Below, in pieces: positions 18,191 through 39,536 of a stretch of DNA of 64,000 bases. Under the pieces are notes generated by a model that made no database searches, was not told the origin of the DNA, and was given only the letters and a program-made list of their open reading frames with translations. Position 1 is the first letter of the stretch. Every line of letters begins with the position of its first letter. The DNA lies in the NCBI GenBank assembly GCA_000827325.1, contig KN832878.1:992001-1056000 (forward strand), written 5' to 3'. The stretch is from Oidiodendron maius Zn (taxonomy: Eukaryota > Ascomycota > Leotiomycetes > Myxotrichaceae). The translations under genes were made by a program, and so were the position numbers.

Positions 18191-18270
18191 TGAAATTACT
18201 AGAAAGTTTTTGATTTGGAAAACAAAATCCACAATTGCTAGTTTAGAATGTGCGGAGATGTACTACTCCG
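18191..18270 (+). promoter_or_regulatory. Promoter block with CGG-N12-CCG palindrome, copy A
   Basis: The last 18 bp (18253-18270) read CGGA-GATG-TACTACTCCG, an inverted repeat with CGG/CCG ends 12 bp apart, the form bound by many Zn2Cys6 dimers. It ends 165 bp before the dehydrogenase ATG. The whole 80 bp aligns without gaps, at roughly three bases in four, to 36274-36353. Confidence 0.7.
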
Positions 18271-18435
18271 AAGGATGCTATCCATCTACCTAAGCCCCAT
18301 TATCTCCTGGTGCGAATCGCTACAGGACAATTGCCGTTTTCAGATCACCTTCGTCGTTCTCGCACCGAGTATATATACTATGAACAGAAAACAATCTATC
18401 TTGTGATCTCAATTAGCAGAGCAACGAAACCAAGA

Positions 18436-19897
18436 ATGGCGGAACATTTGCAGCGGCCACTTAGTATTGTGAGATTTCCTTCGCACATTTACGGAGGAGC
18501 ACATTAACTAACATTACAGGCCATCGTCGGCTCTAGTGGATTTATTGGACAGTATCACTTACAGCATGTTCTCCAAGAGAAAGATTCTGGTAAGTTGAAC
18601 GAGACACCTCTGGACAATCGCCTACTGATCCTTTCGGCAGAACTCGCGGCACTCATGTAAGGTTAGGATGCGCTGATTTCAGCAGTAAACTGACCCCTGT
18701 GAGTGATACAGCTCCTTCAGTGGCAACAACTGCGATGCAGCATGATGTACCGCATTTCAAAAATGTCGATGAGTTCTTGGAAGCCTACAAGTCTGGCGAC
18801 TTGGCTGTTGACGCTGTTATTTTGGCTACACCTACACACACTCATGTAACCCTGGCTCAATCGTTTGTGGGCAGTGGCCTCTCGCTCCTCATCGAAAAGC
18901 CTCTGTCTGTAACAGGAGGAGATGGAAAAAGTCTGCTAGCACTCTCAAAACAGGACACCAGAGGAGTATATATGGTTGGGCATCATCGACGGCATAACGC
19001 ATACGTCAAAGCTATTAAGGATGTTCTAGACAAGAAGAAGTTAGGTGACATCGTTGCCGTTAATGGAGGTGAGTTCAAGGACACAGATCATGGCGTCATC
19101 ACTCTGATAGCAGTAATAGTTTGGGCAGCGCGGAAGCACGATGCATATTACGATATCCCATGGCACACACAGGTTGGGGCTGGTGGGGTGGTATGGAAGT
19201 CCTGGCGCAACGCAATCCTACTCAGTTGCTGACTTCTGACTAGATTCTGACGAATGCTATTCATGACTTTGATATGCTGCAATACTGGTTAGGCGATATT
19301 GCAGAGGTTTTTGCTATGGAAGGGCCAAAGAGACGGCCATACGCTGTTGACTCAACTGTTCAACTCATCTTCAAGTTCTCCTCCGGTGTAATCGGATCAT
19401 TTTTGCTGACCGAGTAAGGCAAACCTTGCCTCACCCACAGAATATCGAACACATGTATTAACTCTCTTGCAGCTCGAGTGCCTCTCATGTATCATGGGAA
19501 GCTGGAACTGGAGACATCCCTGCCTTTTCTTCAATAGGGGAAGACTTTCTCACAATTTTTGGAACGAACGGTTCTATTAGTGTACCATCATTGTACGTGA
19601 GTGCCGCGATCTTTCCGTCTATCCAAGGCTTATGTTTTCAGAATACGATATCACTATGACGACAGGCCAGAGAACGAGAAGAACTGGAAATTTCCTCTTC
19701 AGAAAGACCCTGACGCGATGGCTGCGGTGGATGGCATTCCTGCTTTTGCACATCAACTGAAGCACTTCATCGCCGCAACTCGGCATGAGGTAGAACCAAA
19801 TTGCTCCGTAGAAGACGGCCTCAGGGCAGTGCTTGTCACAGAAGCCGTGTTCAGAAGCTTGAAAACGGGAAAGCCTTCTTTAGTCGAAAAGTTCTAA
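18436..19897 (+). CDS. Gfo/Idh/MocA-family NAD(P)-dependent dehydrogenase
   Basis: Eight exons: 18436-18468, 18520-18589, 18641-18656, 18683-19068, 19120-19190, 19244-19413, 19473-19592, 19642-19897. Phase is kept throughout, giving 373 residues, close to the family norm. The Rossmann start is AIVGSSGFIGQYHL; the EKP motif (LLIEKPLS) carries the lysine typical of the family. The C-terminal substrate domain includes DIPWHTQ, NAIHDFDMLQYWLGDIAEV, and PAFAHQLKHFIAA with CSVEDGLRAVLVTEAVFRS. Seven introns are inferred. Six are 49-59 nt with normal signals; intron 3 (18657-18682) is only 26 nt and ends in a CAGCAG tandem acceptor, yet removing it restores the frame. The reaction is unknown: the family oxidises or reduces sugar-like or cyclic polyol substrates. 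Placed tail to tail with the dehydroshikimate dehydratase and sharing its promoter motif, it may work in the same pathway. Confidence 0.85.
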
Positions 19898-20221
19898 AGA
19901 CGGCTTGATATCCATCTTGAACGCATAGAGAAAGTTTTGTTATTACACTCGCAATCTATTTGATCTAAATGGAGATATGTGATAGGTCACATTGCCCATT
20001 TTCTCTCTGTGTTTGATTCAACGTTCTGGGTAGCATCTACCACAAGCTTCGAAATCATAGCTCAACCATTCTTCAAAAGCTGGTGGGCGATATAATTGGC
20101 ATCCCACTTTGACCATGATGAAGGAGATGACCTTACCCAAGTCTAAAAAAATACGGTGTATGAATGATATAGCTCTGTGTTGAAAGAATCTAATGAACAG
20201 TTGTCATTGCGTAGATGAATT
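19898..20221. other. Convergent 3' intergenic region
   Basis: About 320 bp between the stops of two facing genes. It should hold both transcript ends. No other feature seen. Confidence 0.5.
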
Positions 20222-21262
20222 CTAAGCTGGTTGAGACTTTTCTGACGCTTTCTCTAAAAAACCAAGAAATTTTGACCACGAATTCGCAGCTCGGGTAGCC
20301 AGTTTGCCCACCATCTCCGGGCTAGTCTGATACAAGGATTTGTTGAACATCTCCATACTGACCCAGCCCTCCCAACCCAACTGTACAAAGATTGCCTGAC
20401 AGATTCGCTCGAGAGGCAGGTATCCACCGAGATCTGTTTCAAACGCGTATAAGCGTGCATTCCGAGACCAACTCATCCTTGGCTTTATGCCCTCCCCAAA
20501 CAGTGGATGGCCCGGAACAATGGGCTTATCGAGTTGTTCAGCATCTCCAATTTGAACATAAAAAATCTTCTTCGGATCGATGTCTTGCACCAGTCGTTCA
20601 AGCGACCTTTTCAGGTTCTCCTCACAGTTCTCAGTCAAACCTGAAGATGCAGAAGGATCGGCCCAGACCCGACTCGCAATATGGAATACATCCAAGCACA
20701 ATCCAAAATTCGGCAAATTGACTTGTTTTGCAATAGCCCAAGTCTGATCCCAAGTATCAAAGTGCGTCCCCCACGAGACTGCTTCATAAGCGAAGCGTAT
20801 GGGCGGCGATTGTTGCAGACCCAGCTCAGCAACAGTCCTCAGGTCCGTAACGACTCGTTCTAAATCACTTGTAGTGCCATGCTGCCTGGCGTTTGTTGGT
20901 ATTTGTATGAGATCTGTGCCGAGTGCCCGGCAAAGCTCAAACCAAAATTGTAATAGATCTAGCTTTTCTTTTCGCTCATAATCATCTACAAGGCCTTCGA
21001 AATTCATGAATGGCATCAAGCAAACGACTGTTATACGCAGCTTTCCACAGACCTCGTGAACTCGTTGAGCGGCTTCCAGCAGTGTTTTGCGAGATGGTGT
21101 AGTTTTCCGACCTTCGATCTCACAAGCATATAATTCCAAGCACTCGAAGAAGATTTCCACCCCTGAGAACCCTGCCGAAGCTGCTTGTTGAATCTTTGTG
21201 ATCAGCGAATGCCCCGCTGAAGAGCGACCAAGAGAAACCGATGCAATTGCGTTGTAGAGCAT
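20222..21262 (-). CDS. 3-dehydroshikimate dehydratase-like (qa-4/qutC type, xylose-isomerase-like TIM barrel)
   Basis: 346 residues from the chosen Met, against 348-359 for the fungal QutC/Qa-4 enzymes as I recall them. The start MLYNAIASVSLGRSSAG matches the family N-terminus (xxAIxSMSLGR). The promoter motif at 21427 then lies 164 bp upstream, which also supports this start over the longer frame from 21382. Barrel motifs: GFSGVEIFFE, YEAVSWGTHFDTWDQTW, NFGLCLDVFHIASR, FYVQIGDAEQLD, WVSMEMFNKSL; the acidic residues and His in these are the expected metal ligands. Known enzymes turn 3-dehydroshikimate into protocatechuate in quinate and shikimate catabolism. Single exon. The nearby qa-type regulators make this role likely, though other AP-endonuclease-family-2 sugar isomerases or epimerases look similar. 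Confidence 0.82.
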   Translation of the reverse strand: MLYNAIASVSLGRSSAGHSLITKIQQAASAGFSGVEIFFECLELYACEIEGRKTTPSRKTLLEAAQRVHEVCGKLRITVVCLMPFMNFEGLVDDYERKEKLDLLQFWFELCRALGTDLIQIPTNARQHGTTSDLERVVTDLRTVAELGLQQSPPIRFAYEAVSWGTHFDTWDQTWAIAKQVNLPNFGLCLDVFHIASRVWADPSASSGLTENCEENLKRSLERLVQDIDPKKIFYVQIGDAEQLDKPIVPGHPLFGEGIKPRMSWSRNARLYAFETDLGGYLPLERICQAIFVQLGWEGWVSMEMFNKSLYQTSPEMVGKLATRAANSWSKFLGFLEKASEKSQPA

Positions 21263-21426: not shown

Positions 21427-21444
21427 CGGAGTAGTACTTGTCCG
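21427..21444 (-). promoter_or_regulatory. CGG-N12-CCG palindrome, copy C
   Basis: On the minus strand this reads CGGA-CAAG-TACTACTCCG, identical to copies A and B outside the 4-bp variable part. It lies 164 bp upstream of the dehydratase ATG. Flanking sequence is not alike, so only the site is conserved. Confidence 0.72.
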
Positions 21445-21985
21445 AACCGTCCTCAGGGGCTATTCCGCACTGAACGCAGATTGCACGATCAGTAATCCGC
21501 AACACCAATGCCGGGCCCATGCACAGTATCTGGTTGGGTCGTTGTTATGTGATGAACAGAGTCAAATGGAGGAGCTGTTGCTCTCATTGGCAAACTTAAG
21601 TTTATCTTCCATCTGTCATATATTGATGCCACGCGTAAAATGCACTGCTCGGCATTGTTGCAATCTTTCCACCGGAAGAGCACATTTCCACGAGTCTGTA
21701 CGGAATACCGAAGCTCCCGGCTCATTCACGATACGACATGCCGATATTCTCGCATTCGATAATTACAAATGCTTCATTCAGGCCTTTTCCCATTTTGTTT
21801 GGCTATCGGATAGGCCCCTAAATCAATCATGTTGATATCTCAGCTTCGGCTATATGCGGACCCTGCCCACGGACTCTGTTGTGATGACTATTGACTTGCC
21901 GCTCTTCTAAGATTACTCTAGTTCTGATGTGTCTCTCAAAGTAAAAAAAATTAAAAAAAAAGCACACAGGAGGGTTGCGGATTCC
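21445..21985. other. Upstream region of the dehydratase gene
   Basis: No gene recognised. One 157-codon frame over 21362-21835 has no family resemblance and overlaps the promoter motif. Confidence 0.45.
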
Positions 21986-21990
21986 ATTAT

Positions 21991-22196
21991 TGTTGGAACA
22001 GCGGTGCCAGGAACAACTGACCTAGTCAGGTTAGTTGTACGGAGGAACGGACCGAAGGTTTATCCTAATTAGGAAGCGAATCACACAAATAGTGGTTGTG
22101 TATTCTAGCCTCATAATAATTAATCAATTCAACACGATGAAATGAAGCTGCTAACTCGATATTGCTGAATCAAGGTAATCCCCTTGGTATTTGACA
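21991..22196 (+). repeat. 5' LTR of the Copia element
   Basis: 206 bp, TG...CA ends, preceded by target duplication ATTAT at 21986-21990. One base differs from the 3' LTR. Confidence 0.97.
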
Positions 22197-25160
22197 GGTT
22201 ATAAGCCCGGGAGCGTAACTGCAACCGGGTATCATCATTTTATAGCTTCATTACGCTCTGAGTAGTGGCTTAGTTGAACTACTTGAGCACCAACGCCTCT
22301 GTGGTAGTCCCTGGAGTTAGTATACTCCAACCCACATTGAGCAGCCCTTAATATACCTGATCAGCAGCTTAAGTGGGCTGTTAGAGTGTGGTGTTGTGGA
22401 ATTCGGACGAGTTACTAAGAGTGTAGAACTCGAGTTATGCCTACAACCACTAGTCAACAACCAACCCTTGTATTGATCCTTTGATCAATACAATCAATGT
22501 CTGATTCAGCAAGTCGTCAAAGAAGTAATACAGTCGTTGGTCCTGGTCCTGCAAAGTCAGCAGAGACTAGTTCTTCAAAGTCATCGAATTCATCGAATTA
22601 ATTCAGAATAGCTGAATCAACATCAATATCAAGTCTATCCCTTCTATAGGGTCAGAAGCTCAAGGGATGTGAAAATTATACAGTCTGGAAGGAGAATATA
22701 ATAGTTCTGGCTGCATCATATCGAATTAACTACTATTTAGTCCCCTCAAAGCGATATCTGAAGCCTCAAGATCTCTCGAATGATGACGACTGGGAGGATG
22801 CCTTAACTGAGCAACAGATACAATGGGAGAATTGGGTGGCAATGGATACAAAGGCTTTGATGGCTATATGCAACAATATATTGAGTGGGCCCTTGGATGC
22901 TATATAAGGGAAGAAGACTGCTATTGATATATGGAATACGCTTTAAATCATATATGAAGGCAAGGGTGGAATGCTGGTATATCACGCCCTTAATGATATT
23001 AATCGACTCTAGTACGAGAATACTACAAAGACAGACGAATATATCAATATATTCCGAAAGCTCTTGTTACAGCTATCAGACTTGAAAGCACCACTCTTAG
23101 ATATATATGTAGTTATACTCTTTATGATTGGTGTAAAGAAGGCGTATCCAACATGGGCTGATCGTCATCGTATAGATATAATCAACAGGATTAATAAGAA
23201 CAATCTAGCCTTAAAGGCTATATTAGACAGTCTGATTAAGGACCTCCTTGATACCAGTAAGGCTAAGAAGCCAAATGACTCGAATAACTCAAAACCCACT
23301 GGAGGAGCACTTGCAGCTTAAAATAAGGGTGGAAACAAGGGTGGAAAGAAGGGCAAGAGCTCAGGCTCTAAATACAACAACTGTGGTGATCCAAATGTAT
23401 ATTATAAGCCAGAAGACTGCTTTGCCACGAATATCGAGAGGTGTCAAGCCTAGGAATAGAAGACAGGCAAGACCTATATTCTATACAAGGAGTATAAGAA
23501 TGGATCAAATACAGGGTCTGTAATAGGAAGCCTAGTCTTACCAGTGCTTGTCAACCTTCAATCAAATCAGTGGCTGGCTGACTCTGGCGCTGATGGATAT
23601 ATGGCAAACAACCTTGCCTGTTTTGATACCTTTATACCTGATATACATACAATAGATACGGCTGATAGACTATCAAAGGCCCTTGGATCTGGAACTATTA
23701 ACCTATGGCTACTATACACGGATGGTACGATCTATAATGTTATATTGATAGACGTTATGTATATACCGAAGTGTCTAGTCAACCTCTTTGGAGCCAGGAA
23801 GCTTATAAAGGAGCAGAAGGGGTATATACTCCTAGGTTAACTGATGCTGTGTATATCTAGTAGTAATGAAGAGATCTGTGCTCTTGATGAAAACCTCTTT
23901 CTAAAACAGGTACTAGCTGCTGAAGCTACTTAGGTCCAATTGAGTCAAGTCAACGCCCTCTTGATAGCTAGAAAGCCTGATAATCAGAAGAAGCCAAAGG
24001 CCTTTAATATCGACCTGTGGTATAAGAGACTAGGCCATCTAGGTCTCAAGAATATCAGGAAGATAGCTGATATCATGAAGGGCATTAAGTTGACAGGTAC
24101 TGAACCCTTAAAATCACCCTGTAAGGCCTGCTTAATTGTGAAGCCTCTAAAGTATATGAGAAAGGTATTATCAAAGAGAGTTTTTAAGCCCTTTGATAAG
24201 ATATATATTGATATATTCATGATTAATCCAATCGCCTATAACAAACACAAATACAGATTAATCCTTACTGATAAGGTTTCTTATGTATACTGGGGCTATA
24301 TATTTAAGGAAAAGAATAAAGCCTTTATCTGTATAAAGCAGTTTATAGCCTTAGCTGAGACTCAATATAGCTACAAAATCAAGGCTTTTCGACTGGATAG
24401 TGGAAGAGAGTATAGTCTTGCTTAGCTGCAAGACCTCTGTAATGATATAGGGGTAATCCTTGAGATTACAACTCCCTATTTAGCTAACCAGGACAGTATA
24501 TCTGAACGCTTAATTAGACTAATCCTTAAGAAGGTTAGAAGTGTTATAATAGGCATGAATATACCAGCCTTCTTATGGCCAGAGATCTTCCAATCTATCC
24601 TCAAAATCATGAATCGTACGGCTATATCGAACCTAGACGATATTACTCCAATTGAGTATTTCCTCGATAATACCGATCCTGACCCTGATCACGACTACAC
24701 TCCTTACCTAGGGCACCTATGCGTATTAGGTTGCAAGTACTATGTCCAAATCCCTCAAGAGATTCGAAAACACTCTTGAAAGATTGATCTGTGTGCTGAA
24801 GTGGGTATGCTAGTTGGATACAATAGAGAATATATATACAGGATCTGGGTTCCAGCAAATATAAAGGGTGGTGGATATAGACATATTATACGAAGCTTAA
24901 ATATGGTATTTGATGAATACAGTATATAGTCAGGAGACAAGGTTGATTGCTTCAGCTCTGATATTTAGTCTGAAAGCAGGGGTGAAGAGGACGATATTCA
25001 GGATTTTGGACCAAATATCAGTCACCCTGAACATCGAATTGATCAGTCAGATCAGCAGGACAATATCATGAATCAATCAGATACCTCGGATTCAGAAGAC
25101 TAGCCTACTCTAGGCCAAATCCCTTAACGTGATAATGAAGAAACCGAATTCTTTGACTTA

Positions 25161-25274
25161 GATCAAGCTGATCAAGCTGATCAAGATGATCAAGACGATC
25201 AAGACTATCAAGACGATCAAGACGATCAAGTCGATCAAGTTGATCAAGACGATCAAGACGATCAAGACGATCAA
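25161..25274 (+). repeat. 9-bp minisatellite inside the Copia element
   Basis: About 12 copies of GATCAAGAC-like units between the integrase and reverse-transcriptase regions. Confidence 0.9.
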
Positions 25275-27070
25275 ATCAATCAACCAGCTACAGGGCGCCA
25301 GCGCTAGAGACATGTATAGCAACCAAACCCTGAATATAAGCGCATCACTCGATCAAAGACTATAGCTCTTTACCTTGTAGATCAACTACAGACATTCAGA
25401 GCCTTAATTGTAGCCATAAAGGTTATCACTAATGATCCTTAAACCCTCAAAGAGGCTACTGATTCAAAGGATGCATCTAAGTGGAGGAAGGCTATTCGAG
25501 CTGAATACCTTAAGCTTCAGGAGACTGGAACCTGGAAGCTAGTTGATCGTCTAAAGGGAGTCAAAGTCTTGACTGGAAAGCTAGTCTTCAAGACTAAGCG
25601 TGATTAAAACAGCTATATTGAGAGATATAAGGCATGCTGGGTAGCATGAGGTTATAAACAGCAATACAGCCGAGACTTTGACCAAACCTATACCAGTATA
25701 TACAAGTCAGCCACCTGGAAGATCGTTATAGCTATGGCAGCTATTTATGACTGGGATATTGATCAAATGGATGCAATATCAGCCTTCCTTAACTCTATTA
25801 TACAGGGAGACGTTTATATAGAAGTTCTACCTCTCTAGACTGAATTACTAGGTCTACTAATTGATCAGATCTGCGGTAAGGTCTGCAAGCTACTCAAAGG
25901 CCTTTATGGACTGAAGCAGGCTCCTTGGCTGTGGCAACAAAAGCTCAAGACAACCCTTATTCAGCTAGGATTCTAACTGCTTCTTATAGATAACTCAGTG
26001 TATATTAAGACCTGGCCAGGCGGCAAGGATCTCATTATACTAGTCATGTATGTTGATGATATGCTGATCTGCGGACCTAATTCGAAGCTAATCAGCCAGT
26101 TCAAGCAGCAGCTGTTGAATGCCTTTGATATACAGGACCTGGGACTAGTCACCTACTTCCTAGGGGTGTGAATTGTCCGGAACAGAGCAGAGCGCTCTAT
26201 TCAGCTGATTTAGGACGCATATATTCGGAAGGTTATAAAGCGATATAACCTAGAAGACTCAAAATCGACTTCAACCCCTTTGTAGCAGGGTAGTGTGCTT
26301 ATTTCAAACCCTGATTAAGCGTTAAAAGCCGATATTGAGGCATATCAATCAAAGATGGGTTCAATCACCTACCTGGCTATTCAGACCAGGACTGATATAG
26401 CTTTTGTTTGCTTACTGCTCAGTCGATTCCTCTCAAATCCTAGTGCTGATCACTTGAATACAGCAGATCACTTACTGCAATATATCAAAGGGATAGCTGA
26501 CCTCTGCGTTCAATTCGGTGGCCCTGATCAACAGATATCTGGTAACCTATACGGATATTCAGACTCTGATTTTGCGGGTGATATTGAGCTATGCAAATCA
26601 ACCTCCGGCTTTATATATTTCCTGGCTGGTGGAATTATATCAGCTTAATCGAAGCGTTAATCAATTATAGCTCTTTCTATGACTGAAGCCGAATATTACG
26701 GATTAGCTAAGGCAGTTATGGAAGCAACCTGGCTGAGGGAGACTTTGAAACAGCTCAAATATCAGAACCCTGATGCTGAGTGTATCAAAATATATGGGGA
26801 TAATCAAGCTGTGCTTTAACTGGCTGAGAACCCTTCCTTTTACCAGCGTACTAAGTATATAGCGGTTAAATACTACTATATTCGGGAAGAACGTGCCAAA
26901 GGTCTTATTCAACTATATTACTGTCCAACCAAGGACATGAAGGTAGACAGACTAACTAAGCTTCTTACTCCGATTAAACACAAGACCTTTATACAACAGC
27001 TAGGTCTGTGTCCTGCTACACTCAACTAATAGCTCTTTAACGTGATATACACACTCAGAACTAAGGGGTG

Positions 27071-27276: not shown

Positions 27277-27582
27277 ATTATGTACTGTACGTGTGCCTGC
27301 TAACCAGTTGCAGTATGCTCAGCTAGGATCAGGGATGTTTAAAAAGACAATGTTCCTTCTGTTGTGAAAGCTCTTGTAGCTTGCGGGTAAACCTGAAGAT
27401 ACCCATATCCACGACTGGCCGTCTAGCGTTAAGAGAAACCCTCTGGCGCATAATAGATAAACGGAAATTGACTTACTGGAACTCTTCCAGCCTGCTCAGT
27501 GTTCTTGAAGGGCAACAAAGTGGTGAACTAATTCACCTGTTCTCACACAACACTATCGCCCACCACGCCCATCTTTCTTACC

Positions 27583-28356
27583 ATGTCCAAACCCGCCATC
27601 CTCCTCGTCCCCGGCGCCTGGCACACCCCTTCCAGCTTCTCTCCGCTCACCAACTACCTAATCCAGCATGGCTACACCGTCGAAGGTATCTCTCTTGCCT
27701 CCGTCGGCTTATTTCCGCCCCAGCCCAACTTCGACGCCGACGTCCAAGTGATCGCTTCAACCATCAGCAAACACGCCGACCAAGGCTCCGACGTTGTCAT
27801 CCTCTTCCACTCATACGGCAGCATTCCCGGCACCTCCGCCTGCAAGGGCTTCTTGAAGTCCGACCGCGAAGCCGCAGGTAAAAAGGGCGGCGTCGTGCAC
27901 TTGATCTTCTGCTGCGCGTTCGCCGTTGACGAAGGCGTGTCTCTCATGGACGGTCTCGGTGGGCAACCACTACCATGGTTCGATATCGCTAGTGACGAGA
28001 AGACGTTAACACCCAAGACACCTGTAGAGACGTTTTACAACGATATCGATGATAAGAAGATATTGGACGAGTTGGTAGGCAGTCTCAAGCCACAGAGCTA
28101 CGGCGCATTTTGGAGCAAGAGCACGTATGCAGCGTGGCTAGATGTGGAGAGCACGTATATTGTGTGTGGGGTGGATGAAGCGCTGCCGGTGCAGGTGCAA
28201 CAGGGGATGGTGACGAATGTGAGGAAGTTAATCGAGGAGAAGGGTGGGAAGGGAAATATGCAGGAGGTTACGATGAAAGCAAGCCATAGTCCGTTTGTAA
28301 GTCAACCGGTGGAGTTGGGGAGGATTGTGAGGGAGGTGGTAGGGGAAAGGGTGTAG
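27583..28356 (+). CDS. Alpha/beta hydrolase (AB_hydrolase_6-like)
   Basis: Single exon, 257 residues. N-terminal strand ILLVPGAWHTPSSF gives the oxyanion-side motif. The nucleophile elbow reads LFHSYGS, with Ser in an HSYG context in place of the standard GxSxG. A late acid (CGVDEALP) and His (KASHSPF) complete the triad. The substrate cannot be told; relatives include small esterases and lactonases of secondary metabolism. The gene is visibly richer in G+C than its neighbours, with C-ending codons in the first half (GTCCCCGGCGCC). It starts about 300 bp after the Copia element, so its promoter region may have been altered by the insertion. A lactonase or esterase releasing a ring acid would fit the cluster, but that is inference. 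Confidence 0.85.
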   Translation: MSKPAILLVPGAWHTPSSFSPLTNYLIQHGYTVEGISLASVGLFPPQPNFDADVQVIASTISKHADQGSDVVILFHSYGSIPGTSACKGFLKSDREAAGKKGGVVHLIFCCAFAVDEGVSLMDGLGGQPLPWFDIASDEKTLTPKTPVETFYNDIDDKKILDELVGSLKPQSYGAFWSKSTYAAWLDVESTYIVCGVDEALPVQVQQGMVTNVRKLIEEKGGKGNMQEVTMKASHSPFVSQPVELGRIVREVVGERV

Positions 28357-28840: not shown

Positions 28841-31300
28841 TTAGGATTTAGATTGCATCCGGCGCAATTGGCTTTCAATGTATTGACAAACTTCGGCATC
28901 CTCTTTGTTGCTATTCAGATAATGTTGCAATGCTGCAATGCGCATTAAATTTCTGGGTAATTTTCGGCATGTGAAGACTTCAAACTGCGCGGAAGCTTGT
29001 TCAACAAGACTCTCTAGACCGTCCACGGCAACCCAGCCGCGCTGAGCCTGACTCCGCACCTGACGAAGAAGTGGAGTGATTAATGCACGATAGTTCGTAT
29101 CAATAACTACGCCTCCAGTCGGACTTTTCATCCATTGAAGAGGAAGTAAGAACTGATCTTGAGGGCTTTCATATGTTTTGGGTGCTGGTATGCAAGAGAC
29201 CACCGCTATTGGCGGTGCCAAGTCATCATACCAGTCCGCCTCAAGGGAATCGAGCACACGGATGTCCCTCTTAGACAGAGGATTGATATAAAAGCCTTTC
29301 TGCAAATTCGACGCAGATGTATGTGCTAGAGATGTGTCCAATCTTACTTCTGAGAAGTGATCAGCCAGCGTACGGGCATGCATGTATGTACGATTGTATA
29401 TCACGATGTGCTGTACACCTAGATTCAGCAATGCGTATATCGCAGCTCTAGCCATGCCGCCAGCACCGATGACTAGCGCAGTTGAGGTTGGTGTTATGAC
29501 ATTGGCAGGTGAGAGATTTTGCTTAATGCATCTCGTTATGCCTACCCAATCAAGATTGTCGCCGTAGAAGGCCAAAACTGGTCCAGCTCGATTGCGATTT
29601 GCCCAAAATTCTTGTGGTGCGGGCTTTGTGTAGTCGAAGGCTGCTCGAATTGGCAGAACCGTATTTATTGCACCAATGTTTCTGGCATGAATGCTTACCG
29701 CAGACATGCGTGACAATAGGGTCATTTTGAAACCTTGAGCCATGGTAAGTCCGCCAAAGTTTTCGTCACTGGTGAGGGTGGATAATTCATCCAAAGTAGA
29801 CATCGACCTAATGTGTAACCGGTGGGGCATACCGAAAAATTCATGTGCCGCATTGTGCACCACCGGAGAATATGTGTATGACACGTCAAGTCCAATGATA
29901 TAGTATTTCATTGGATCATAAACAAACGACGCATATATGGAGCTCTGAGACTGCTGAATGGTTATCTCCGATAGTAAATTGCGCTCTCCGACGGCATTGG
30001 AGAGGTGACTGCGAAGCTCTTCTGTTGTTACAGGAGTAAGAATCTCGTTGAAACAGCGAGAGGTGCGCCCCAATGGTCCTGTATTATAAGCAATAACGAA
30101 TGGCCTTGAATTTCGTCCTCTATTTGCGGACACAGCGAAACTGGCTGCTTCGCGATTGTCGCTCGAGCTTAGTGCAGGTTGTGTCAGTCTAATACCATCA
30201 AATCCAAGATTCACAGCTTTGGTGAGGATATTGCGACGATCTAGACTCGTCCAGCCATTTTCCGAGGGTGTGCTGTCATGGTAATCGCCGATCAGTCTGG
30301 TGCCTCTGGAAAGTTTGATCAATTCCTTCAGCACTTGAACAGTGAGTCCCAGTTGTACTGTGACAAAATCAACTCCGAGTCTGAAGCCATGATCAAGAAG
30401 GTCCAGGTATAATGATCTGAAACTGCCTGGCGGCTTTGCTGAAGCTGGTCTCAGGTGATAGATGACAGGTCCACTGAAAGTCCTGGTTACGGCGGCAAAT
30501 GCTCTACTGATCTGCTCTTTTATCAACATTGGTGACGATTGTGCATCCTCCATCTCTGATTCAATCTCAAGTTGAATTGCGTCCGCCCCACAATCCAACC
30601 ATCTCATATTGAAATCTTCTAAGCTTATTTGAGCGACCGAGGTTGTAAGCAAATATGTATAGGTCGCTCGAGACTGTGGGATGGGGGGTCGACCAGAGTC
30701 TTGATCTGGCAGTAAATCTGGCTCCATAATGTTCTTGACGAGACGCAAAAAGCTCTCCTCTACACGTTTTAGTCGCAGAGACCTTGGTGCCCGATCGGCA
30801 TGAAAGATGTCCTCGGCAGAATGTCCGGTTAGAGTTAACGCCTCCGTCTCGTCGAGATTGAAGTATTCGTAGTTTGAGCAGGACCTGTATGTAGGTATCA
30901 TAAACTTCATTATCCTTTCAATCTTGTTTGGCTCAGGTAGCTGCAGATATTTCTCAATGGCGGTAGTCTCCCGTTGCACGAGAATGACGGGATGGTCTTT
31001 ACCATACTGCTTCAGAAGTGATAGACCAGCCTCTTCGATGTAGTCCTTAGGCCATACTATGACGCAGTTCTTCGAGTATGTGCTCAACAGTTTTGCAAGA
31101 AAGGAAAGCCATCGTGTACGACTTTCTTCAGCTCCGAACTGTTTACGAAAATGTAGCGCAGAGACACCGGTTTCCTTGTGGAAAGCATCGTCCGCATCGA
31201 TATGCTGCAGCCCCAACGAGGCCTGTGCGATGATGGCTAAACTCGTCTTCCCGCAGCCTCGAACGCCAAGAAGCACGATTGAAGCGTCGCGTTGAAACAT
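28841..31300 (-). CDS. Quinate repressor-like protein (qa-1S/qutR type)
   Basis: Single exon, 819 residues. Domains follow the C-terminal half of the AROM protein: a shikimate-kinase-like part at the N-terminus with a P-loop (GVRGCGKTSL, residues about 13-22) and DADDAFHKETG; a type I dehydroquinase-like part (about 205-430, e.g. LDCGADAIQLEIE, VIYHLRPAS); and a shikimate-dehydrogenase-like part (about 470-800; GLDVSYTYSPVVHNAAHEFF, VIGAGGMARAAIYALLNLG). This is the make-up of fungal quinate repressors QutR and Qa-1S, which bind the activator and silence quinate genes. About 100 residues shorter at the N-terminus than the classic repressors (about 920). Divergently arranged with the activator, as in Neurospora. 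Confidence 0.87.
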   Translation of the reverse strand: MFQRDASIVLLGVRGCGKTSLAIIAQASLGLQHIDADDAFHKETGVSALHFRKQFGAEESRTRWLSFLAKLLSTYSKNCVIVWPKDYIEEAGLSLLKQYGKDHPVILVQRETTAIEKYLQLPEPNKIERIMKFMIPTYRSCSNYEYFNLDETEALTLTGHSAEDIFHADRAPRSLRLKRVEESFLRLVKNIMEPDLLPDQDSGRPPIPQSRATYTYLLTTSVAQISLEDFNMRWLDCGADAIQLEIESEMEDAQSSPMLIKEQISRAFAAVTRTFSGPVIYHLRPASAKPPGSFRSLYLDLLDHGFRLGVDFVTVQLGLTVQVLKELIKLSRGTRLIGDYHDSTPSENGWTSLDRRNILTKAVNLGFDGIRLTQPALSSSDNREAASFAVSANRGRNSRPFVIAYNTGPLGRTSRCFNEILTPVTTEELRSHLSNAVGERNLLSEITIQQSQSSIYASFVYDPMKYYIIGLDVSYTYSPVVHNAAHEFFGMPHRLHIRSMSTLDELSTLTSDENFGGLTMAQGFKMTLLSRMSAVSIHARNIGAINTVLPIRAAFDYTKPAPQEFWANRNRAGPVLAFYGDNLDWVGITRCIKQNLSPANVITPTSTALVIGAGGMARAAIYALLNLGVQHIVIYNRTYMHARTLADHFSEVRLDTSLAHTSASNLQKGFYINPLSKRDIRVLDSLEADWYDDLAPPIAVVSCIPAPKTYESPQDQFLLPLQWMKSPTGGVVIDTNYRALITPLLRQVRSQAQRGWVAVDGLESLVEQASAQFEVFTCRKLPRNLMRIAALQHYLNSNKEDAEVCQYIESQLRRMQSKS

Positions 31301-31869
31301 TTTACGCTACTTCGCTTGCGAATGGTGTCGCGGCGAGCATGTCATTGATGGGATTTCTTACATCGTTATGAGACGACTGTCGATAGCAAATCAAGCACAT
31401 GCGACAGTCATGGCTTGGAGTCCGCTGTTGCTGGAGTCGATATCGCCTTACAAAGGACCCTCATCGGAAATAGTAGACTATTGCGAATAAGAAAGTTGAC
31501 GATGGTGGCTGGTACAAAGAGTGCACATCGTCAGGAAATGCCATGAGAAAGTTTTAGCCTTTTCGCGAGCGACTGTTGGTCGGAAAAAGTTGCTCCGATT
31601 CAGGTCAGGGCGTTCAGGGCGTACAGTAATGGCAGCCTAGGCAGCTGAAGACCCCCGCATCTGCTTTGAAATGCACCAGTCCACTTCCCTACTCCATGCT
31701 CCAATCTTGCTAGAACCATGATTTGTGGGCGACAGTTTATGCCCTTGTTTGGTGTGCTACGACAGTCTTCAACATTTCCGGTTATATTTATCCATCCAGC
31801 CCAAAAACAATGAATTGAGGTCGTCCTCATTTGCCGGATGCATAGCAATCAAGTCTCGTATCGCTACGA
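31301..31869. promoter_or_regulatory. Shared divergent promoter of the repressor and activator genes
   Basis: 569 bp between two start codons. It holds one near-match to the cluster palindrome at 31581-31597 (CGGA-N9-TCCG, one base shorter) and one half-match to the known QutA/Qa-1F site (TTATCC end) at 31778-31793. Neither is strong. Confidence 0.45.
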
Positions 31870-34119
31870 ATGGCGGACGAAAATTGTCATGCCCAAGTTG
31901 AGCGGCCTCGAAAGCGGCAGCGTACAAAAGGACTCACCGAAATGGACATGTCTGGTGCTCTGAGTGATCCCATCAAACGAGCAACAAGAGCTTGCGACCA
32001 ATGTCGAACACAAAAGAAGAGGTGTGACTCAGGTCGACCATGCAAAACATGCATTAAAGCCTCCCTAAACTGCTATTACGGAAAACAGGCCAGGAAGCGT
32101 GGCTTTCCGACGGGCTATGTACGTATCATCGAGGCTCTGTGGGCTCTTGCATTCAGAGCCGTGCCTAGCAGCCAAGAGACTGCTCTACAATTGCTTCGCA
32201 ATTCAAGAGTCGGATTTGACGATGAAGGGAAAGTCACTCTACTCAATCTCCATTTTGATAGGGTAGATTCGTCTCGAAAGGTCTGGCTTAGCAGCTCAAT
32301 TCGGCACGAAATAGACAAGTTGGCGTCAGAGCTTGAGGATGATGAAAAGGCTGGCTTGGCACCTGAGGGAAGTACCTCAAGATCTGATCTAACTATGAGA
32401 ACATCCCAATCTTCAGCATCGAGTTTTGCTACTTGGACAATGCCCGAGGATATTTTGAGTGGAAAACTTAACTGCAAGCACATGGACGACCTTGCAGCTC
32501 CCGAAAATTTCGGAACCGATCGTCACACCGAACTCTCTTTACCACTCCCTGCCGACGCCTGGAAGCTCACTGAGGTATATTTCAAGTACTACCACTCTTG
32601 GCTGCCGCTTATGCCAAAGCACAGTATCGTTCGTGCACTGAGCGAACTACAAGACGGAGTGAAATGCAGCTCAAGTCAGCTAGGCGTATTGTGGGCCATA
32701 TTGGCTCTTGCCTCTGCACGGCAACCTTGTAGCGATGGGGAGCAATTGTCGATATCAGATAAATACTATCATGAGGCGATGAAAAGTATTCCAAATGAAC
32801 TCACAAGGCTGGATTCTGACCATGTGAAAGCACTGGTACAGTTGACAGTATTAAATATGACCAAGGGCCGCTGGGATACAGCATCCATTGTTCTACGTCG
32901 TATCATTCGTGTTATACTCCAATTGCAGCGATCATATAGCTATCAGCAGCAGCACGCTACAATGGAATCGGTTCTAAATCGGATCATCCTTGCAGCTTTT
33001 ACTATGGATACGCTTCTTGCGGCTCGATCAGGTACCATACCACAACTACGTTCACATGATGTCAGCTGGGCTGCACAATACGACGAGAATGAGGCCGACG
33101 AATGGGAACAGTGGCCAACAAATACTGGTGTTCAGACGAGTGGTAATGAACATATGGTTTCACGAAGGCCACTAAGAACACTTAGCACTTTTAAACAATA
33201 CATTAAGCTCCTGTCAATTTTAAACGATTCTCTCTGCGATCTTCATCCCGTCGAAGACTATGAAGTCAAGCTCAATGATTATCAAGGCAAAATTTTATCC
33301 TGGAAAGCGCAACTGCCAAAGCATTGTCAATATCCAACTACTGTGACAGCCGAAAATGGGCTGGAAGTCTTGCCATCTGTCGCTAACTTGCATCTCACTG
33401 CCGAAGCTGTATCACGATTTCTCTTTGCGAGGCAGTACATGTCCACAGACAAATTGACCCAACCGTTGATGAGTAATGAAAGCTCTCCGGTTTCTCTGTA
33501 CAAGACAGCGTATCAAAGCGCTTTTGGTCCTGCGGCATGGCGCGGTATCCTAGACTTCCATGAGTATGCGAATCACCTCGAGAAGAAGAGCAATCAAACA
33601 CAAATGTTATCCTCGGACAGAGACAGTAAGCTCGACACGCGTCAGTTACCTGTCTCTGATACTAATAACTACCGTGTTACAATGTCTAAGCAACATGGTC
33701 AGACTAGTCTTGAGATGCTAAACTCCGAACCAGCTGCTGAAGCCTTGCCTGCAAGGAATTTTACGCGCCTTCATGATACGATTTTGCAACATCCCATAAA
33801 CGAAGGTCTTTTTTCCAATGGCATGGATGGCATAATGACGGAGCATGGCTCTTCCGATGCGCACTTGGACCCGAATGGGTTGCATGTAATGGACAATATT
33901 TTCGGAGCTGACACGGCTTTAGTGTCATTCGATATTAATCAACATGCAATGTCTACTGCACACGCGCCTAGTCATGATAATAATGAGATCGGTGATGAAA
34001 ATTCAATTGAAAATCTCTTGGAAGAGCTCTCTGCGCAGCAGAATGTCAGTTGGGATGAAATGGAAGCCCAGTGCATGTACAATCTTGGGTTTATGCAAGC
34101 AGATCACATTATGCACTAG
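31870..34119 (+). CDS. Zn2Cys6 activator, quinate activator-like (qa-1F/qutA type)
   Basis: Single exon, 749 residues. Zinc cluster with Cys at 42, 45, 52, 58, 61 and 68 (ACDQCRTQKKRCDSGRPC...), then KRGFPTGYVRIIEALWALAF, the segment that follows the zinc cluster in QutA and Qa-1F. A fungal-specific middle homology region lies around 230-560 (KYYHSWLPLMPKHSIV), and the acidic C-terminus (ENLLEELSAQQNVSWDEMEA) is typical of activation domains. QutA and Qa-1F switch on quinate catabolism genes and are held off by the repressor encoded on the other side of the shared promoter. The pairing strengthens both calls. Which site this protein binds in this genome is unknown. Confidence 0.87.
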   Translation: MADENCHAQVERPRKRQRTKGLTEMDMSGALSDPIKRATRACDQCRTQKKRCDSGRPCKTCIKASLNCYYGKQARKRGFPTGYVRIIEALWALAFRAVPSSQETALQLLRNSRVGFDDEGKVTLLNLHFDRVDSSRKVWLSSSIRHEIDKLASELEDDEKAGLAPEGSTSRSDLTMRTSQSSASSFATWTMPEDILSGKLNCKHMDDLAAPENFGTDRHTELSLPLPADAWKLTEVYFKYYHSWLPLMPKHSIVRALSELQDGVKCSSSQLGVLWAILALASARQPCSDGEQLSISDKYYHEAMKSIPNELTRLDSDHVKALVQLTVLNMTKGRWDTASIVLRRIIRVILQLQRSYSYQQQHATMESVLNRIILAAFTMDTLLAARSGTIPQLRSHDVSWAAQYDENEADEWEQWPTNTGVQTSGNEHMVSRRPLRTLSTFKQYIKLLSILNDSLCDLHPVEDYEVKLNDYQGKILSWKAQLPKHCQYPTTVTAENGLEVLPSVANLHLTAEAVSRFLFARQYMSTDKLTQPLMSNESSPVSLYKTAYQSAFGPAAWRGILDFHEYANHLEKKSNQTQMLSSDRDSKLDTRQLPVSDTNNYRVTMSKQHGQTSLEMLNSEPAAEALPARNFTRLHDTILQHPINEGLFSNGMDGIMTEHGSSDAHLDPNGLHVMDNIFGADTALVSFDINQHAMSTAHAPSHDNNEIGDENSIENLLEELSAQQNVSWDEMEAQCMYNLGFMQADHIMH

Positions 34120-34276
34120 AAAATCAAGTAGTTATAGACAGACCTAACATAGAGGGTTCGAACCACTGGAGGACCAAGCCTCTGATGAGGGCAACAACTG
34201 CCAGTGATGCCTACGCTAGTGGACCAGCTCCCTCCACGCGTACTAGCTGGATTCTGCATTGAATTGGTTCACGCCA

Positions 34277-35774
34277 TTATGTATGATGGCCCCAAGCTTC
34301 GCCGACAAACGCTTCTAGGTCCTCCATAAATTCTTTTGGCTGTTCCAATGCTGCGAAATGTCCACCTTTCTCGTGAATTTTTCTCCACACTAAATTACCT
34401 GTTGTCGCTACCCACTCTATTGGAATGGGAATAAGCTCCTTCGGGTAGTAAGAATAGCCTAATGCTACCTTTATGTGATACTTTGGATCGTCGTGCGGTA
34501 TGGATTTGGGGCCGTATGACTGTCACAAGTGACATGTCAGCAGGGTTTCTCTCTATCATAGTATTCTTACCGAAGGGATGAACCCTACGTGACGGTATGA
34601 CCACAAGTTACTGTGCGCGCATTTGCTTAGCCAGTAAAGACTGCTTGCTTCGAGGATAGTATTTAACGGGAGAGGAGCGTCTGTCCAATCCAAAAACTTT
34701 TCACCAACCCTGACATTTTAGCAACGTAAGTGATTTAGGGCTGCAGTGGTATACCATGACAGTAGTGCTAAAGGGTTACTGCTCAGGACGAAGCCAATAG
34801 TGCTGGGCTTTGTAGCGTGCTCAAGGGCATATGCAACCCCAGTTGCTTTCCAGGCCTCCCAACGCTTGAGTCCGTCTTGTTCGATCTCGGATAGCGACGA
34901 GTCATTCACTGCCGACGCAGGTCGATTAATCGAGCAGAAATTAACTAATCAGGTCAGTTTCCTCTCCAAACAGCCAAATCATGGCCAAAAGCTCGAGGGT
35001 AGATCTTACGATGCACAGCTACGGAGCCTGTCAGCAATCTATAATTTTGGGAGACTTGTTAGCTCGAAAAGCTTACCTTTACACGCATCGTGGTTAACAG
35101 CTATAATTCTAGCCACCCTAGAGCCTACATCGCCACCCTGCGCAATGTAACCTTCTCCAAAGCCTATTTGTTTCATCAAATTATCCATGATTCTCGCCAC
35201 ATCCACCTGGCTGATGTCATGACTGATAGATGGAAGAGCCGAGAGCGTATACCCTGGTAGGCTTGGAACCACGAGATGGTATGGAAGAGTTTCAGGCGTA
35301 TATTTCTTCCTGAATAGTTCGAGCATAGGCAGAAACTCGAGGAAAGAACCAGGCCACCCGTGAAGGAGAACAACAGGAACTGCGTCCGGTCGCTTTGAGA
35401 AAAATGCTACGAAATGAATGTCGAACTTTCCGAGCTTATCATCGACGGGTACCTGGAAATTTGGAAAAGAGTTGATGTGCTTCTCTGTCTCCCTCCTGAA
35501 GTAGTGTTAGAAGTCTAAACGAATCAACACAAGAGACTTGCCATTTGAAATCCGTTTCCCACACTCGCTTGGCTTCGACCAGCCAGTCTCGTCGGATGCC
35601 CAAGTGACGGTCGCCATCGGGAAGAGAGTTCTCGTAGGCAGGGCCAGCTACAGGAGTAAGCTTTAGAAGATCCAGCATATGCTTGATTTCTGAATCGGGA
35701 ATATGTAAGTTGTATGCTTCGATGTTTGATGCCGCATTCGATGGCAATTCGCCAAACACATTCGATTGCGTCAT
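34277..35774 (-). CDS. Epoxide hydrolase (EHN domain plus alpha/beta fold)
   Basis: Six exons: 35774-35542, 35495-35077, 35018-35010, 34944-34755, 34709-34571, 34519-34277, giving 410 residues. An upstream in-frame Met at 35831 would add 19. The N-terminal EHN lid (IPDSEIKHMLDLLKLTP, GIRRDWLVEAKRVWE) precedes HGWPGSFLEF (oxyanion), QGGDVGS (nucleophile Asp), a lid Tyr region, and GGHFAALEQP (catalytic His). These match microsomal/juvenile-hormone-type epoxide hydrolases, which add water to epoxides. Intron 1 is GC-AG (GCAAGT donor, 46 nt). Exon 3 is only 9 nt (CTGTGCATC), supplying Ala-Val-His between ACK and LNFC as the family expects. All phases agree, so the gene looks intact. Its upstream region carries promoter-motif copy B. 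Confidence 0.88.
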
Positions 35775-36273
35775 GATTGTAGATGCGGGACCTTGGAATG
35801 TTAAAGCAGCTGCCAGAGTCAGATGGATCACGAGTAAACTGGGGATCGGCTTCTAGCTGGTGTTTATTATCTATACTGATTCTTTGCTTGATTTGCAAGG
35901 GACATGCTAGTTGGTTGCTGCACATCTAAGAGTTCTCTTTCACGTCACTCACGCCGGAAAAGATGTAAGCCGAAGGGCGCGATCCGAACAATCCCGCCGA
36001 TCATTTCGGAGCTTGCCCCGTATGTACAGTACATATACATGATCTGTAAGCATTCTCAACTTGCCTACTGTTACCTACTTCAATACCAAAGTTTTAACTC
36101 GTAGGAACGAATTATCAAGATTCGACTAGAATTTAGGGACTCCTTTTCTTGGAAAAAGTCTTTTGATAGCCCAACCTAACAGCACGAAAACCCATGATCC
36201 CCCACCTGTGATAAGATCCCGCGTCAGGTGGCCTTTGATCTGCCAACCGCAGCATGTATCTGCCCATCTAATT

Positions 36274-36353
36274 TGATATCACTCAAAGACTTTTGAAATG
36301 AGCGACAAAATACACAATTACTAAGTTAAAATGTGCGGACTTTTACTACTCCG
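36274..36353 (+). promoter_or_regulatory. Promoter block with CGG-N12-CCG palindrome, copy B
   Basis: The site 36336-36353 reads CGGA-CTTT-TACTACTCCG. The block lies about 500-560 bp upstream of the epoxide hydrolase start and is the partner of 18191-18270. The rest of 35832-36668 shows no gene. Confidence 0.66.
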
Positions 36354-36668: not shown

Positions 36669-39294
36669 TTAAAGTCTAAATGGCATTTTCATAAGCCAGG
36701 TAAAGTCATCTAGATCAAAAATTAGATCCAGGTTTGAGAGTAACTGAGAAGATGCAAGATTATTTTTCTCGGAGTTAGAATGCATCTTAAGATCATGGAG
36801 ATGAGATGATGTACGACGGAATTGTTTTACCGGGCACCAGTACTGAAATGTGGCCGCGGTGTTAGCGTCATCAGATGGGGGTAGTTCGGTATTGGTTTCG
36901 CCCCGTTGCGAATCCTGCCTTAATCGAGTGTATTTTTGGGGTATAATCTGAAATAAAATGTGTAAGACAACTACTAGACGGTGGACAGACGCGTTAAAAG
37001 TCGCGTACTGGCTAAGAACCGCAACGGCCTTATGAAACCCATCATGAATTGATTCTTCCGATATCTCGGCCACAACTGAGGGGCTAAGGTGGCCCGCGAT
37101 AAGCACTGTGGCAGATGTGTACAAGAAAATTGCATTGCACCACCAACTGGACAGGTCTCTCGTCTCATTGGAACCCGCAGCTTCGCCAATGTATATGGTA
37201 TCAATAGCTTCTTGAGCGATCTTAACGCATACGATTGCGCATTGCAGAGAGATTCGGTGAGAGAGCAAGCTTCCAAAAGGAACAGATTCCCCTTTGTTTT
37301 GAAACTCGAATGCAACGAACGCTGCAAGCATAGGTCTTAACAACAATATGTGGATGTGAAGATGCCTTAGAGCGATGTTAGTTTAACATGAAATTGACCA
37401 TATACTCTAGCGGCGTACCTTTGGTGAAGAATAATTGCTCTACGAACTAGCACAGCATTCACTCCATTGTCTGAAGTGTGGTGTCCAACCTTGAGATACT
37501 CAGGAATCCCTTTTTCCCACTTTGAAAGCCTCCCCTGAAGCTCGAAGATGGCTGTGTTCTTTTCAAAAGATAAGAAATTTCTGGAATCTTGATGTCCATT
37601 TTTAAGGCGTTGTTGAGATTCATTGGAGTAGTAATTGAGGAGGACGTCATGTAAGATATCATACAATCCTAGAGAGGATATGTAGAAATTAGCAGCATGA
37701 GCTTGCTGCGCCTGAATAGTGTGCAATTGAACATCCCCCAGCCTAAGGCTTTTTTCTTCCATAAGCAAAGGAAGAGGTACAGCAGCAGCCGTCTTTGGAT
37801 CTATCATACATGATCGACCATACAGCATGGAAACTTCTCTATCCATCAGGATGCAACCATGCCAGACTTTGCGAAGCAAGTCTCTAGTTCGACTTTCGGA
37901 CTCCCGTTCGCTAGTTTCGAATACGTGAAGTTCAAGTGTTTGCGCTGTGCGTATCGCGAGTCCCACGAACATCCAACACATATGAGACTCATCAGTGCTC
38001 TCAAAGTACAGTGCTAAGAGCAGATATGACTGGACTGAGCTAATCGAGCATATTCCGATGTCCAGTAATTTCCGTGCTCTCAAGCAAAAGGCGGCAGCCA
38101 TGTGCTCAGGGTCTGGATTTGCTGATCTAACGTGTCGACTGCTGATGGCGAATGTAGCATTGAGTAAACATAAAAACAACTGCTTGTTAGTTTTCGAGTC
38201 GCCGTGGTCCCAGATCTTATCGTAGTTTTCTTCCATTTGCAATTTATCCAAAAAGGGATAGAGAATATGCACATATTTCCAGTAAGAACTGAGCAGGCTA
38301 TCGGCTTGTTCTCGGGCAGGTAGGGTGTAGTCCAGATCCTTCTGCCTTAATTCGTATCCTGGACCTAGTGGCGATGGATTATCATGACTTCGACCAAGAA
38401 CATTTGATGCAGACTGTGATGCTCCACCAAACCTTTCCTTGACCAATTTCTCCACTTCTTGCATGAACGTTCTAGCGATGGGGCATCCGACGGACTCCTT
38501 ACTATGATCATCTTCTATGATTGCATGAACGGACTGATTATTAGAGATGAATACAGTATCCGTGCTTTCCGGATGGAGCGATGGAACCAACCCTGGGACA
38601 ATAAAGGTAGCTGAAGTCGGTGGTTGTAGGTCTGTACTTGTCCCTGGAATGGACGAGGATCCCACCGACGGAGCGGACGTAATAGGTTGCCGTATGGTGG
38701 GCTCCGGCAAGGAAGAGGAGGCGACCCCTCTAGTGGTTGTCCGTGGTATTAATTCATCCGAAACGTCACTCATGCTTCGGCGATTGTTGGGTTGGGTTAT
38801 GTAGCCTTGTCTGTTACTCTCTTCCAACAGGCTGATCCTATCCTCGAGTCGCTTGATGCAATCTGTGGGTGCATGTCCAGTACGCAGCGAGTCAGTAGCC
38901 CATGTGCATAATGCCTCGCTTCCAGGTCTTTTCTCGCATGGCTCGCACACTATGGGAAGCATCATTGATCAGCACATATACCCCTCATGAGAATCTAAAC
39001 TGGCGATCTAAATAGCGAGAACAGATCTAGCCACAGGGTACTTTGAATCACAGTAGATAGATGTAGCTGTAGTCTATTCCCTTTCGTGTGGAAAGAGGTA
39101 GCTATGCTTCAATTGTTGCAAATCATCTCGAATGGCTGAAGAGACAGAAGGCCATACCTGGTTGGTGGCCATCACATTTGATCTGTCCGCGAGATTTAGC
39201 AGGTGTCATAGAAATCTGTCTTGGGGCTATCGCAACAAACCTTTCGACTGCGGCAAGGGTCACATGCAATAGTAACCTTCCGCCTCTTAGGCAT
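36669..39294 (-). CDS. Zn2Cys6 transcription factor with fungal-specific middle region
   Basis: Four exons: 39294-39241, 39182-39158, 38949-37419, 37365-36669, giving 768 residues. The zinc cluster is split over the first three exons and is complete once spliced: Cys 11, 14, 21, 28, 31 and 41 (ACDPCRSRKIKCDGHQPVC...). A coiled linker (IKRLEDRISLLEE) follows, then the middle homology region (SSYWKYVHILYPFLDK, SVQSYLLLALYFEST, HGCILMDREVSMLYGRSCMID). The short second exon (25 nt) and the 208-nt intron after it explain why the longest frame alone appears to lack half the cluster. Divergent from the cupin gene, with a palindrome of the cluster type between them, so it is a candidate for the factor that binds that site. 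Confidence 0.86.
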
Positions 39295-39518
39295 TGATCT
39301 ATTCATGGCGTTGGATAGCTGGACCCCTTTACGTACAGTTTACCTCTGTCGCTCACAGTGACATTTTTCGACCAGCAGGTCTAAAGTCCATGAAAGAAAT
39401 AGAAAACGGACGCCGCGGCTGAAGTGGGGCATGGAAGCATATCAACAGGGAGGTACTGTAACAATACGGAACCAACGGAACAGATCCGAAGCCAGAGGCA
39501 CAAACTTGTCGGGCAGTT

Positions 39519-39536
39519 CGGATGAAGGATTGTCCG
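39519..39536 (+). promoter_or_regulatory. CGGA-N10-TCCG palindrome, copy D (looser)
   Basis: CGG/CCG ends 12 bp apart with the outer CGGA and TCCG kept, but without the TACTAC core. It lies 225 bp from the Zn2Cys6 start and about 205 bp from the cupin start, in their shared promoter. About one such 8-base pattern is expected by chance in a window of this size, so this copy alone is weak. Confidence 0.4.

Follow-up and report, generated by a model that had tools for sequence, protein, structure and literature searches.

CGG-N12-CCG palindromes in the cluster promoters

In a 64-kb window of the Oidiodendron maius Zn contig KN832878.1 (the whole stretch analysed, to which all counts and positions refer) we found six inverted CGG-N12-CCG repeats in the promoters of a gene cluster. 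It encodes a Gfo/Idh/MocA oxidoreductase, a dehydroshikimate dehydratase-like protein, an epoxide hydrolase and a cupin, together with a divergent pair of regulator genes: a Zn2Cys6 activator-type gene (TF1) and a gene for an AROM-like repressor-type protein (Table 1). The palindromes are probably genuine Zn2Cys6 sites of this cluster, and on balance we favour reading them as candidate operators for a Zn2Cys6 dimer, with TF1 as the likeliest binder; this putative assignment rests on the geometry of the sites, one conserved inner base and the gene neighbourhood. The result is a good testable prediction and not a new kind of system: a candidate operator, four enzyme genes marked by it and a fixed promoter position would offer a concrete and cheap test for an orphan activator-repressor switch.

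An earlier reading of the letters alone (the sequence-only reading) had proposed that palindromes resembling Zn2Cys6 dimer sites are linked to the promoters of this cluster, and dyad counting bears this out. We counted 63 CGG dyads (inverted, everted and direct, at spacings of 0–20) in six stretches around cluster genes with a total length of 3698 bp: inverted CGG-N12-CCG was the commonest with 6 copies (17848, 18253, 21427, 35955, 36336 and 39519) against a mean of 0.372 in shuffled sequences, followed by direct CGG-N6-CGG with five scattered copies. None of 1000 shuffles brought inverted CGG dyads to 6 copies at any spacing, and 6 of 1000 did so for any of the 63 dyads. The window holds 11 CGG-N12-CCG sites, 6 in the cluster promoters and 5 elsewhere. 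Compared with the other DNA not masked as coding, the promoters are enriched (6 sites in 3698 bp versus 3 sites in 21014 bp, Fisher P 0.0006); one of these 3 sites, at 63100, sits inside an unmasked open reading frame (ORF).

The nearest site lies 165 bp before the ATG of the Gfo/Idh/MocA gene, 164 bp before that of the dehydroshikimate dehydratase-like gene, 180 bp before that of the epoxide hydrolase gene (site 35955) and 204 bp before that of the cupin gene (site 39519). The first two gaps (ATGs at 18436 and 21262) had been given correctly by the sequence-only reading. The Gfo/Idh/MocA and epoxide hydrolase promoters each carry a second, distal site at 570 and 561 bp, respectively. All four 600-bp upstream stretches contained a site in 0 of 3000 shuffles, and three of them in 2 of 3000. 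None of 19 control ORFs had a site within 800 bp of its 5′ end, these ends being those of stop-to-stop frames and not annotated starts.

Exact copies and the probable kinship of two of them

Three of the six sites are exact copies of CGGA-N4-TACTACTCCG, found where they had been reported: site A (18253-18270, plus strand), site C (21427-21444, minus strand) and site B (36336-36353, plus strand). The pattern CGGANNNNTACTACTCCG matches exactly at these three positions, with no fourth match in the window. B is indeed situated upstream of the epoxide hydrolase gene (561 bp from the ATG at 35774), and the flanks of C are unrelated, as had been noted: outside the palindrome C agrees with the other copies at no more than one or two adjacent bases. 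A looser copy, CGGA-N10-TCCG, had been described at 39519-39536 and is present there (site D). This shorter pattern occurs five times in the window versus 0.61 expected, namely at A, B, C, D and 33839, the last within the coding sequence of TF1.

The further claim that such a pattern should almost never recur by base counting was too strong. A and B lie within one 49-bp block of ungapped alignment, so they are not independent of each other and only C is independent of A. The local alignment of A with B scored 58, against a best other score of 31 among up to 300 random window pieces (two pieces overlapping B also scored 58), and the left part of the block has only these two copies in the window with 0.00 expected. 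The homology does not extend past 49 bp and no third copy was found in the window. This alignment makes a common origin of A and B probable. As the pattern had also been chosen after the fact, simple base counting was dropped as a measure of rarity. Of 300 dinucleotide shuffles, 2 contained two or more CGG-N12-CCG sites whose 10-bp halves agreed, one spacing being considered; over all spacings the half-site statistic was uninformative (reached in 299–300 of 300 shuffles, with half-sites shortened at small spacings) and only the spacing-12 figure was used. The identity of A and B with C is unusual, to a degree less extreme than base counting implies.

The palindromes would have no regulatory role if A and B merely stemmed from the duplication or transposition of a single fragment and all remaining sites, C and D among them, had arisen by chance. 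The common block, the occurrence of equal halves in 2 of 300 shuffles and the copy inside coding sequence at 33839 fit such an origin. We nevertheless consider it quite improbable: the end of the block coincides exactly with that of the palindrome, sites 17848, 35955 and 39519 lie outside it, one duplication leaves the promoter enrichment and the 164–204 bp placement unexplained, and Rfam gave no family match across 17600-40300. The idea that the block stems from a transposon end or an RNA gene was rejected on the same Rfam result, the end of homology at 49 bp and the lack of a third copy. A lost plus-strand gene downstream of B was likewise rejected, as tblastn with ten cluster protein pieces (the cupin piece being in the wrong frame) revealed no remnant; the sole extra match was weak, joining TF1 residues 4-54 to the start region of the second regulator gene, TF2 (E 0.43).

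Regulator genes and the putative binder

TF1 and the repressor-type gene are separated by 31301-31869. Structural relatives of TF1 in the PDB are Zn2Cys6 proteins including Pho7, Ppr1, Lac9, Put3 and Gal4, and TF1 is likely to be related to the known QutA-type regulator of quinate use. The repressor-type protein contains shikimate kinase, 3-dehydroquinase (80 bits) and shikimate dehydrogenase domains and aligns with the AROM structures 7tbv and 7u5s over most of its length. The idea that a lost Schiff-base lysine marks a dead dehydroquinase domain was dropped, as the aligned AROM sequences carry arginine at this position. No relatives of the protein on viral contigs were confirmed.

From this arrangement we infer a scheme for joint control. 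In cells lacking inducer the AROM-like repressor would keep TF1 inactive, and a quinate- or shikimate-like metabolite would free TF1 from it. TF1 could then bind the sites 164–204 bp before the ATGs, as well as the distal sites of the Gfo/Idh/MocA (570 bp) and epoxide hydrolase (561 bp) promoters, and would jointly activate the Gfo/Idh/MocA, dehydroshikimate dehydratase, epoxide hydrolase and cupin genes.

TF2 might bind the sites instead, with TF1 acting elsewhere. Its gene lies inside the site-bearing stretch, its product has a fungal transcription factor domain and a Cys-rich, Zn2Cys6-like N-terminus (by eye from the DNA, ATG 39306), and the position of site D, 212 bp before that ATG, is compatible with self-regulation. 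However, both the geometry and a conserved inner A match the patterns of the QA-1F element (see below), and the QA-1F-style arrangement with a partner repressor belongs to TF1 and not to TF2; we therefore regard binding by TF2 as unlikely.

Half-site comparison with QA-1F and AtrR elements

The sequence-only reading had set the palindrome apart from the QutA/Qa-1F consensus, which belongs to the quinic acid response element of Neurospora crassa and Aspergillus nidulans; QA-1F is the quinate activator of Neurospora. The consensus itself, GGRTAARYRYTTATCC, which resembles the published patterns used here, is in fact absent (0 matches at up to 2 mismatches in 64 kb). The geometry, however, is the same: the QA-1F patterns in the available part of PMC3114802 consist of a pair of 6-bp halves separated by 4 bp (GG-N12-CC), and the six cluster promoter sites present this 16-bp inverted repeat with its 4-bp central gap. 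Position 7 of the half-site is commonly A in both, in 8 of 10 distinct halves here and 27 of 28 QA-1F halves, versus 2 of 16 halves of AtrR elements (ATREs). A further likeness is the location of the palindromes before genes near a divergent pair of Zn2Cys6 activator and AROM-like repressor.

For scoring, a QA-1F matrix was built from 14 gapped patterns of the 16 printed in the available part of PMC3114802 (28 halves), and an AtrR matrix, which is nearly flat, from 8 published ATREs (16 halves). At a score of at least 9.5 and a gap of 4 the QA-1F matrix found five promoter matches (18037, 27522, 31544, 35956 and 39520; Fisher P 0.010 versus other non-coding DNA, a single-gap value with 13 gaps tried), against 0 or 1 promoter matches at each of the other 12 gaps in the range 0–12. 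Outside the promoters there were 8 matches, 5 in non-coding and 3 in coding DNA. Leaving out the sites of the sequence-only reading, 4 matches remained versus 0.52 expected, and 0 of 1000 shuffles reached 4 at the same threshold. P was 0.02 at a threshold of 8.5, 0.005 at 9, 0.007 at 10 and 0.002 at 10.5. Site D ranked 6 in the window. The second-best score of the window belongs to a palindrome at 40425-40440, GGGTAATAAATTATAC, which precedes a short-chain dehydrogenase/NmrA-like gene (ATG near 40858).

Besides the probable kinship of A and B, several points weigh against the palindromes being operators of TF1. The promoter set and its limits were drawn after the sites had been seen, and without the four sites of the sequence-only reading two new CGG-N12-CCG sites are left (Poisson P 0.054). 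CGG-N12-CCG is absent from the 800-bp promoter of the alpha/beta hydrolase gene and from the TF1/repressor intergenic region, where a matrix of the six sites found nothing convincing either (P 0.44 and 0.29). With the QA-1F matrix the outcome varies with the threshold, P being 0.051 at 8, 0.163 at 11 and 0.092 at 12; at 8 a gap of 3 gives 3 matches and a gap of 4 gives 4. By this matrix A, B and C rank poorly in the window (100, 1714 and 44), and over positions 4-7 sites 17848, A, C and B score below zero, with 35955 and D above. At position 5, T is found in 23 of 28 QA-1F halves versus 2 of 12 here. Finally, 17848, A and B (three of the six sites) score higher over positions 4-7 with the AtrR matrix than with the QA-1F matrix.

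This last result could indicate that the sites serve a global regulator, for instance AtrR. In the available parts of PMC10294635 and PMC6414702 (including Table 2) the Aspergillus fumigatus consensus of AtrR is likewise 5′-CGGN12CCG-3′: triplets and spacing are identical to those of the ATRE. We judge binding by such a regulator very unlikely. Six of the 11 window sites are concentrated in the promoters of one cluster and none precedes the 19 control ORFs of the window, the A at position 7 differs from the ATRE halves, and none of the cluster genes scanned fell into a sterol or iron family. In literature text searched with TACTACTCCG, CGGAGTAGTA, CGGN12CCG and CGG-N12-CCG, the papers with the form CGGN12CCG, among the matches listed, were PMC10294635 and PMC12505884, whose titles or abstracts concern Aspergillus fumigatus and AtrR. 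TACTCCG gave no match in literature on binuclear regulators and Aspergillus promoters, and the only occurrence of CGGAGTA in literature with Zn2Cys6 motifs was within a primer.

Enzyme genes of the cluster and neighbouring genes

Among the PDB relatives of the Gfo/Idh/MocA protein the inositol 2-dehydrogenase 4hkt is foremost. By eye, the splice junction at 18580-18690 (near 18590) offers a strong donor, GTAAGT, that is out of frame and a weak donor, GTTGAA, that fits; the gene may contain a frameshift or an unusual intron. Residues 15-206 of the dehydratase-like protein match PDB 5hmq, titled 4-hydroxyphenylpyruvate dioxygenase, which we take to be a QuiC1-type dehydratase fusion; from this likeness the product of 20222..21262 would be a dehydroshikimate dehydratase. 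Pfam was run on 39 ORF pieces (other ORFs being unscanned): dehydroquinase and shikimate/quinate dehydrogenase domains occurred only in the repressor-type protein, and a separate quinate dehydrogenase, a catabolic dehydroquinase and a transporter family were not found in these pieces, so no complete quinate cluster is seen in the window, and such genes may lie in other parts of the genome.

Table 1. Palindromes, shared block and genes of the cluster in window coordinates
Feature	Position	Strand	Remarks
CGG-N12-CCG CGGAAGAATAATATGCCG	17848..17865	+	second site of Gfo/Idh/MocA promoter; 570 bp before ATG; missed by the sequence-only reading
QA-1F-like palindrome GGCTAAGACATCAGCC	18037..18052	+	top score of the window with the published-pattern matrix
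49-bp block common to A and B	18222..18270 vs 36305-36353	+	83.7% identical, ungapped
Site A CGGAGATGTACTACTCCG	18253..18270	+	165 bp before Gfo/Idh/MocA ATG
Gfo/Idh/MocA oxidoreductase	18436..19897	+	several introns; Pfam PF01408; limits by eye
Dehydroshikimate dehydratase-like protein, 346 aa	20222..21262	-	xylose-isomerase-like TIM barrel; Pfam PF01261
Site C CGGACAAGTACTACTCCG	21427..21444	-	164 bp before dehydroshikimate dehydratase ATG
Weak palindrome CGGAAGAGCACATTTCCA	21673..21690	+	one mismatch to CGG-N12-CCG; dehydroshikimate dehydratase promoter
QA-1F-like perfect palindrome GGTGAACTAATTCACC	27522..27537	+	45 bp before alpha/beta hydrolase ATG 27583
Alpha/beta hydrolase	27583..28356	+	Pfam PF12697
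AROM-like repressor-type protein	28841..31300	-	Pfam PF01202, PF01487, PF08501, PF01488; ATG by eye
QA-1F-like palindrome TGAGAAAGTTTTAGCC	31544..31559	+	between repressor and activator genes
TF1, Zn2Cys6 activator-type	31870..34119	+	Pfam PF00172, PF04082; divergent from repressor-type gene
Epoxide hydrolase, microsomal type	34240..35774	-	Pfam PF06441, PF00561; PDB 1qo7 and others; 3′ limit approximate
CGG-N12-CCG CGGAAAAGATGTAAGCCG	35955..35972	+	180 bp before epoxide hydrolase ATG; missed by the sequence-only reading
Site B CGGACTTTTACTACTCCG	36336..36353	+	561 bp before epoxide hydrolase ATG
TF2, second regulator	36669..39306	-	Pfam PF04082, fungal transcription factor domain
Site D CGGATGAAGGATTGTCCG	39519..39536	+	204 bp before cupin ATG, 212 bp before TF2 ATG
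Cupin	39741..40253	+	Pfam PF07883; PDB 8x0u, 3es1

A copia-type retroelement with Pol_BBD and gag_pre-integrase domains occupies 21991-27276, between the dehydratase and alpha/beta hydrolase genes. Because its end repeats (206 bp) are 99.5% identical, the insertion that splits the cluster is probably recent. Together with interrupted genes and with Zn2Cys6 and HET domains, this element marks the window as fungal in content. Further genes were noted around the cluster: phosphorylase, NACHT-like and ankyrin-repeat frames lie in a row at 13023-17168, a layout presumably typical of fungal NOD-like proteins, and a HET-domain (heterokaryon incompatibility) gene lies at 44943-47012. A possible third Zn2Cys6-like gene at 47636-49276 (minus strand) has a Cys-rich N-terminus by eye; two pieces of it gave no Pfam match.

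Relation to known activator-repressor systems

The cluster resembles the Qut (QutA/QutR, or QA-1F/QA-1S), Gaa and Tan modules in that a Zn2Cys6 activator gene adjoins a gene for a protein similar to the last three AROM domains. A divergent layout is described for qutA/qutR and tanR/tanX in the available part of PMC10512348, and for the quinic acid and galacturonic acid systems the part of PMC6528562 available reports that deletion of the repressor leads to constitutive, activator-dependent expression. GaaR/GaaX, which responds to D-galacturonic acid and has the GaaR element CCNCCAA, is likewise described as an activator-repressor pair of this type. Its motif was rejected as the operator here on a search with a longer form (the short form CCNCCAA was not searched). 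That longer form of the element, YCCNCCAAT, has 3 matches in the window versus 3.6 expected and 0 in the cluster promoters.

Four activator-repressor pairs are described in Aspergillus niger, one of which, NRRL3_07604/07605, is without known function in the available parts of PMC10512348 and PMC12610400. This pair is divergent like the one studied here, and by gene number we infer that it adjoins a dehydroshikimate dehydratase paralogue, NRRL3_07603; here, too, a dehydroshikimate dehydratase-like gene lies near the pair. In contrast to the strong dehydroquinase domain of our repressor-type protein (80 bits), this domain is given as undetected in NRRL3_07605 in the available text of PMC10512348. 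The two pairs are likened by layout and description, and orthology is a lead only.

More tentatively, and with less confidence than in TF1 as binder, the palindromes may be the operators of an activator-repressor module that is so far uncharacterised and perhaps akin to A. niger's fourth pair; its inducer would be a cyclic acid resembling shikimate, and it would place the dehydratase, dehydrogenase, epoxide hydrolase and cupin under common control. Were this so, the four enzymes would form a pathway not found described in the literature examined, in which no fungal gene cluster pairing a dehydroshikimate dehydratase with an epoxide hydrolase was found, and QutA-type activators would have altered their inner base contacts with the N12 geometry kept.

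Among known elements, QA-1F comes closest, as does, if only triplets and spacing are considered, the AtrR element. In base-by-base comparison and matrix scores the agreement with QA-1F covers the frame and one inner base and does not extend to the remaining half-site positions: the half-site here reads CGGA-N-W-A, without the T preference at position 5. Judged by sequence likeness, a variant of the QA-1F type is a better description of the sites than a contrast with QA-1F, and the cluster may exemplify an operator geometry that is kept while the inner base preference of its half-site shifts.

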